A DNA stretch of 37,551 nt from Chloroflexota bacterium (GTDB lineage: Bacteria > Chloroflexota > Anaerolineae > Anaerolineales > RBG-16-64-43): NCBI GenBank assembly GCA_026389925.1, contig JAPLGX010000171.1, forward strand, positions 1 to 37,551, read 5' to 3'. Numbering within the stretch: the first letter of the stretch is position 1; each line of letters opens with the position of its first letter. The notes beneath the pieces are model-generated. The model searched no databases and was not told the DNA's origin. It saw only the letters and a program-made list of their open reading frames with translations. The position numbers and the translations under genes were made by a program. Positions 10,242-10,788 of this stretch are shown in pieces.

Positions 10242-10270
10242 TTGACACGCCCCGCGCGAGGTTCTATACT
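10242..10270 (+). promoter_or_regulatory. Near-consensus sigma70 promoter TTGACA-17-TATACT
   Basis: TTGACA 10242-10247, 17-bp spacer, TATACT 10265-10270 in the tsaD-SWIM intergenic region. Confidence 0.85.
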
Positions 10271-10304
10271 TAGCAGGTAAGCTGGAACGAGGAGGAAAAC
10301 CGCC

Positions 10305-10343
10305 ATGAGCGGTCTGGCACACGGCACGAGGCTCACCGGCTGA
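10305..10343 (+). CDS. Candidate 12-aa leader peptide MSGLAHGTRLTG
   Basis: Strong Shine-Dalgarno gaggagg 8 nt upstream; ATG..TGA; lies between promoter and terminator. Confidence 0.5.
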   Translation: MSGLAHGTRLTG

Positions 10344-10345
10344 CG

Positions 10346-10378
10346 AGGCACCGGGTCTCCCCGCGTGCCTTTTTGTTT
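10346..10378 (+). terminator. Rho-independent terminator/attenuator ahead of the SWIM gene
   Basis: AGGCAC-CGGG-tctc-CCCG-c-GTGCCT followed by tttttgttt. Confidence 0.75.
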
Positions 10379-10404
10379 CCTATCACCCTCCAAGGAGTCC
10401 GCCA

Positions 10405-10647
10405 ATGGACTATGGGATGATCGGCAAAATCGACAAGGCCAAGCGTTACGCCCAGGAGCGAGAGCGGTTCCACTTCGACAACTTTGCATTGGTGTTCCAC
10501 GGCGACAACAACGATCACCGGGTGGCATACACGCAAGGCAGGTGGGATTGTGATTGTGAGTTCTTCAAGCGGCGCGGCGTGTGCAGCCACACCATGGCGC
10601 TGGAACGCATGCTCGAGAAGATGCTGGCGGTGAAGGAAGTCGCTTAG
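10405..10647 (+). CDS. Small SWIM zinc-finger protein (80 aa)
   Basis: WDCDCEFFKRRGVCSHTMAL fits CxCx(n)CxH; caaggag Shine-Dalgarno upstream. Confidence 0.8.
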   Translation: MDYGMIGKIDKAKRYAQERERFHFDNFALVFHGDNNDHRVAYTQGRWDCDCEFFKRRGVCSHTMALERMLEKMLAVKEVA

Positions 10648-10755: not shown

Positions 10756-10788
10756 CACAGGACGAACGCCGCCGGCGTTCGTCCTGTG
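10756..10788. terminator. Perfect 15-bp stem, 3-nt loop between convergent genes
   Basis: CACAGGACGAACGCC-gcc-GGCGTTCGTCCTGTG between the SWIM gene (+) and ccmD (-). Confidence 0.75.

Follow-up and report, generated by a model that had tools for sequence, protein, structure and literature searches.

A small gene for a SWIM-type zinc-finger protein (80 residues, 10405..10647, forward strand) lies, in the window analysed here (the whole stretch of 37,551 nucleotides of DNA from a Chloroflexota bacterium), behind a short segment, 10242-10404, that carries a promoter, a minute open reading frame and an intrinsic terminator. This arrangement raises the question of what a terminator does between a promoter and the gene, and whether the reading frame in front of it takes part in deciding if the gene is transcribed. 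The preliminary description of the locus had suggested either transcription attenuation or a small RNA, with two pairings in the leader RNA as possible switches.

All elements were found at the positions originally claimed for them, on the forward strand. The sigma-70-type promoter, TTGACA-17-TATACT (10242..10270), scores 11/12 and is present once against 0.4 sites expected; it places the predicted transcription start near 10277. It is followed by a Shine-Dalgarno sequence, GAGGAGG (10289..10295), a leader ORF of 12 codons (10305..10343) encoding MSGLAHGTRLTG, and an intrinsic terminator (10345..10378), consisting of a stem at 10345-10371 with the core GGCAC..GTGCC and one bulge, and a U-tract at 10370-10378; TTTTTGTTT lies directly 3' of the hairpin. 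The TGA stop codon of the leader ORF ends 3 nt upstream of the first G-C pair of the terminator. Folding assigns the hairpin a free energy of -18.4 kcal/mol (z -4.0), equalled by none of 200 shuffled sequences; a simple terminator scan missed it, probably because of its one-base bulge. A second Shine-Dalgarno sequence, AAGGAG (10392..10397), precedes the SWIM gene. Further downstream, between this gene and convergent genes, lies a near-perfect inverted repeat, CACAGGACGAACGCC..GGCGTTCGTCCTGTG (10756-10788), which is probably a terminator shared by both sides.

Conservation of the SWIM gene and its upstream region

The assignment of the encoded protein to the SWIM zinc fingers holds for its metal-binding pattern, CxC..CxH, as the ligands C49, C51, C60 and H62 are invariant in 26 orthologues, but its score against PF04434 (18.6 bits) stays just below the Pfam gathering cut-off of 19.6; the protein is thus best described as a SWIM-like relative just below the Pfam line. 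It was found in 172 of 200 relatives of the window genome and in 304 of the 399 genomes sampled across the phylum, and named records related to the window are mostly from Anaerolineae. The cultured relatives Anaerolinea thermolimosa and Ornatilinea apprima have SWIM loci as well. A structure model is fairly confident (pLDDT 87.6); no solved structure was matched by sequence, and the best match by fold had an E value of 0.52. Whatever function is suggested below for the protein is one that we infer.

In the loci examined no shared operon partner of the SWIM gene could be identified. Its neighbours are unrelated: tsaD, considered as a possible link in regulation, adjoins only the window's two copies among the 159 loci whose upstream sequence exceeds 1 kb, and is an incidental neighbour. 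Since the neighbours differ from locus to locus, the leader and the SWIM gene form an independent unit.

For comparison, 144 non-redundant orthologous upstream regions were collected. A promoter matching at least 9 of 12 consensus positions is present in 138 of these, and a strong hairpin with a U-tract in about 128, which bears out the conservation of both elements in relatives. The promoter-terminator layout is above chance, as the same order precedes the orthologues family-wide; in the window's own genome, a terminator follows within 130 nt in 4 of 30 consensus promoters checked. The exact terminator pattern occurs nowhere else in that genome, a strict pattern that also misses the bulged hairpin of the window. 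Some lineages of the phylum have no recognisable terminator, for instance a large-genome family (f41; loci L238, L239, L267 and L269). The distance from the end of the terminator to the ATG of the SWIM gene has a median of 37 nt, and in 116 of 126 cases does not exceed 60 nt. A second promoter would not obviously fit into such a gap; judged by this spacing, polymerase probably reaches the SWIM gene by reading through the terminator.

The same genome holds other promoters with a hairpin close behind. At locus L193 (1500-1720 of contig G000:C400, forward strand) a consensus promoter is followed by a short ORF and then by rpoB, which carries the Pfam Rpb2 domains. The ORF crosses a terminator-like hairpin located 53 nt downstream of the -10 box, and this rpoB leader is possibly a second leader attenuator. 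Two more consensus promoters, at L177 and L200, have a terminator-like hairpin within 130 nt.

Position of the leader stop codon relative to the terminator

Leader starts were assigned by a rule that is blind to the stop codon, namely the first ATG with a Shine-Dalgarno sequence, otherwise an ATG at the 5' end, and otherwise an ATG in the usual range; stop positions were counted from the first G-C pair of the hairpin. Among 126 leaders, 76 have a Shine-Dalgarno-type start, 23 begin leaderless 5-10 nt downstream of the -10 box, and 10 lack a recognised start. The leader ORF usually has 9-20 codons.

Of 116 leaders, 68 have their in-frame stop codon at -9..+4 nt relative to the hairpin base; reading them in the other two frames gives 9 and 8, and 500 shuffles of the ORFs gave a mean of 13.3 for the same range (sd 3.6, maximum 23). 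Stops well upstream of the hairpin are correspondingly few in frame (7 of 116, versus 57 and 36 off-frame). As the orthologues are related, these counts overstate the independence of the leaders. The effect is also seen when Shine-Dalgarno starts alone are considered, where the stop lies at the hairpin in 48 of 75 leaders (6 and 2 off-frame) and before -12 in a single one of the 75 (30 and 21 off-frame); it survives thinning of similar leaders, with 37 of 61 versus 4 and 2 off-frame. A second cluster of stops occurs at +11..+16, within the hairpin, and in 29 of the 116 leaders the stop lies outside -12..+18.

Leaders with a leaderless start and no Shine-Dalgarno sequence share this property, as the stop is at the hairpin in 12 of 23 (1 and 3 off-frame). 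Examples of leaders that start at the 5' end, in lineages without a Shine-Dalgarno sequence, and still end at the hairpin are MIDKTISETNLKGLNWS and MSRVVAIISAFDL. At eight loci from lineages without a Shine-Dalgarno sequence (L009, L013, L017, L037, L057, L073, L075 and L091) the -10 box and the leader ATG are 6-9 nt apart, and these leaders are probably translated leaderless.

Families outside the order served as a held-out set, comprising 77 distinct loci; a strict rule recognised a terminator in 41, and a Shine-Dalgarno start was present in 28. The in-frame stop falls at -12..+18 in 18 of the 28, versus 5 and 5 off-frame (1000 shuffles: 8.1±2.0, maximum 14). In the narrow range of -12..+4 the signal is weak, with 9 versus 5 and 4 off-frame and a shuffle maximum of 9. 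Two groups of loci missed by the strict rule fit on inspection: in L232/L233, from small genomes, MLKILIFYHLNKLRV ends with a TAA abutting GGCACC, and in L240/L268/L295/L297 a peptide of the form MK.CVT... ends with a TAG overlapping the first base of GGGCGG. The rule that the leader stops at the hairpin thus recurs in outgroup families of the phylum, albeit more weakly.

The placement of the stops is comparative evidence that the leader ORF is probably translated. The conserved trait is the geometry, a reading frame ending on the terminator, rather than peptide sequence or RNA switching.

Peptide sequence and RNA structure of the leader

Apart from an initial M-R or M-S, the leader peptides have no motif in common and are unrelated; neither a run of regulatory codons nor a conserved arrest motif could be identified in them. 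Between close leaders, 36 synonymous and 118 nonsynonymous codon differences were counted in frame, and 32 and 240 off-frame. As change is mostly nonsynonymous, constraint on the peptide is at most weak, and a conserved leader peptide was rejected.

These findings bear on classical amino-acid attenuation through competing RNA structures. The trp, his and ilv attenuators also have a leader peptide and an intrinsic terminator upstream of the gene, but the SWIM leader is without regulatory codons and without antiterminator pairing, and its stop lies at the hairpin base, with a distance near zero against more than 20 bp from leader stop to hairpin in amino-acid attenuators (PMC4824070). We regard this explanation as highly improbable.

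Neither of the two pairings suggested as switches has become a general feature. GGCACG (10323-10328) had been thought to compete for the 3' strand of the terminator. Pairing of upstream leader sequence with the terminator arms does not exceed that in shuffled sequences (3' arm z = -0.09±0.10, 5' arm +0.28±0.09, n=87), and no conserved antiterminator or alternative RNA structure was found in these 87 leaders, so that the proposed competition is unsupported. Moreover, the pairing would leave a hairpin beside the U-tract, which is not the geometry of an antiterminator. The idea was therefore abandoned, and the GGCACG pairing looks like a local accident. The hairpin CCGC-catga-GCGG (10300..10312, forward strand), which presents the leader start codon in its loop, is indeed present and strong in the window's own clade, but is weak family-wide (mean z -0.51±0.14; a free energy of -2 or lower in 40 of 87), and was rejected as a general switch.

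What is conserved here is the context of the start codon, CTATGCGAG (ATGCGAG in 27 of 100 thinned leaders) and TATGCGAG or CGCCATGAGCGG, the sole strongly conserved sequence of the leader; the Shine-Dalgarno sequence of the SWIM gene, AAGGAG, occurs in 71 of the 100 thinned leaders. Besides the start context and the Shine-Dalgarno sequences no conserved k-mer was found in the leaders, and no pause element was identified. A phylum-wide start motif was considered and dismissed, being present in 7 of 79 outgroups against 1.7 expected, mainly in related taxa.

The terminated transcript of about 100 nt could itself be a small RNA, with the SWIM gene expressed through leaky readthrough. The promoter and the terminator are both strong, and a GGCACG/GCACGC stem is conserved, as would suit such an RNA. 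Yet the sequence from promoter to terminator diverges freely except near the start codon, leader structure is not greater than in shuffled sequences (z +0.23), Rfam has no match for the leader above the gathering score, and a separate promoter for the SWIM gene would in most cases not fit. Since the frame, and not the RNA, is conserved, we consider a small RNA quite unlikely. Of the two readings offered in the preliminary description, attenuation, in the form of a translated leader, has strong comparative support from the stop placement, the spacing, the conserved promoter and terminator, and the replication outside the order.

Alternatively, the leader might be a stall-inducible attenuator of the kind found at ABC-F and erm resistance genes, where a ribosome stalled on the leader ORF by a drug or metabolite is needed for readthrough and the SWIM protein would be a ribosome-stress protein. 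Promoter, short uORF, terminator and gene are the layout of such leaders, and a ribosome arrested at the stop codon would keep the hairpin from forming; in the resistance genes vmlR, msrD and tlrB and in hflX (uORFC-6-1), a very short uORF likewise precedes a terminator and the gene, and the position of the ribosome sets readthrough (PMC9226507, PMC8632094). These systems rely, however, on ribosome stalling, in vmlR with an anti-antiterminator/antiterminator pair of alternative RNA structures, whereas the peptides of the SWIM leader have no conserved arrest motif and its RNA no conserved alternative structure. Stalling of this kind thus seems unlikely, though less so than a small RNA.

Proposed mechanism and comparison with known attenuators

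We propose that 10242-10404 is probably a translation-coupled transcription attenuator of the pyrBI/pyrE type, with the direction of control and the physiological signal as we infer them. RNA polymerase would initiate near 10277, and a ribosome binding the leader Shine-Dalgarno sequence would translate the 12-codon peptide, whose sequence would matter little, up to the stop codon at the base of the terminator hairpin. A ribosome arriving while the polymerase is completing the hairpin would cover its 5' arm; the hairpin would not form, and transcription would continue into the SWIM gene. With late or absent leader translation, or with the polymerase running ahead of the ribosome, the terminator would fold and release a transcript of about 100 nt. 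The output of the SWIM gene would then report timely translation, or transcription-translation coupling.

In E. coli, the intrinsic terminator of pyrE is blocked by a ribosome translating up to it. The same holds for pyrBI, where translation up to the pyrL terminator prevents its formation and no competing structure is needed (PMC4824070, PMC5021804). A ribosome represses a terminator a few bases downstream of the stop codon almost fully in E. coli; termination recovers to full efficiency beyond about 27-30 nt from the stop, and is restored when translation is removed (PMC4824070). The conserved near-zero spacing between stop and hairpin thus speaks for a ribosome that interferes with the hairpin directly. 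Unlike pyrBI, whose leader gene of 135 bp contains the terminator and where pausing sets the coupling (PMC4824070), the SWIM leader has a short ORF, a stop at or in the hairpin, and a small zinc-finger gene as its target. As a ribosome seldom catches up with the polymerase within the first 100 bp without a polymerase pause (PMC4824070), the leader may be a kinetic sensor of coupling; in a leader in which no pause element was identified, the same point also weighs against the model.

The same anatomy would be expected if translation always suppressed the terminator and transcription were blocked only on global translation failure, without a specific signal. The strong Shine-Dalgarno sequence and a peptide indifferent in sequence agree with such a constitutive quality gate, but it seems costly to keep a terminator and a leader ORF across classes without regulatory gain, and we hold this to be very unlikely. 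The proposed translation-coupled attenuator also resembles the DUF1127 leader of Sinorhizobium meliloti, a uORF leader of a small-protein gene to which the monitoring of ribosome availability has been ascribed; there, Rho-dependent termination and a C-rich element are proposed, and the sign is opposite, since translation of the uORF leads to attenuation (PMC12218461).

No prior description of the leader or of the SWIM protein in this phylum was found in the literature searched, with subscription journals mostly outside the search. The SWIM leader would appear to be a previously undescribed form of translation-coupled attenuation. As a rule, attenuators with a leader peptide answer to an amino acid, a nucleotide or a drug, and a conserved peptide or RNA switch underlies many of them. 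Here the layout has been kept throughout one class, and in parts of others, while peptide and RNA drift, which points to the frame ending on the terminator as the selected trait. The SWIM leaders thereby offer a natural setting in which direct interference between ribosome and terminator can be tested cleanly, and the stop-at-hairpin rule is a simple means of searching for such attenuators elsewhere. More speculatively, and doubtful as it stands, the leader could be a translation sensor as old as the phylum, in which timely arrival of the ribosome determines how much of a small zinc protein is made. That protein would act on translation or on RNA, and might close a feedback loop by binding the conserved start context of its own leader (CTATGCGAG / CGCCATGAGCGG). 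In a phylum for which little is known of post-transcriptional regulation, the finding points to a widespread small zinc protein, the expression of which seems to be worth translational control.
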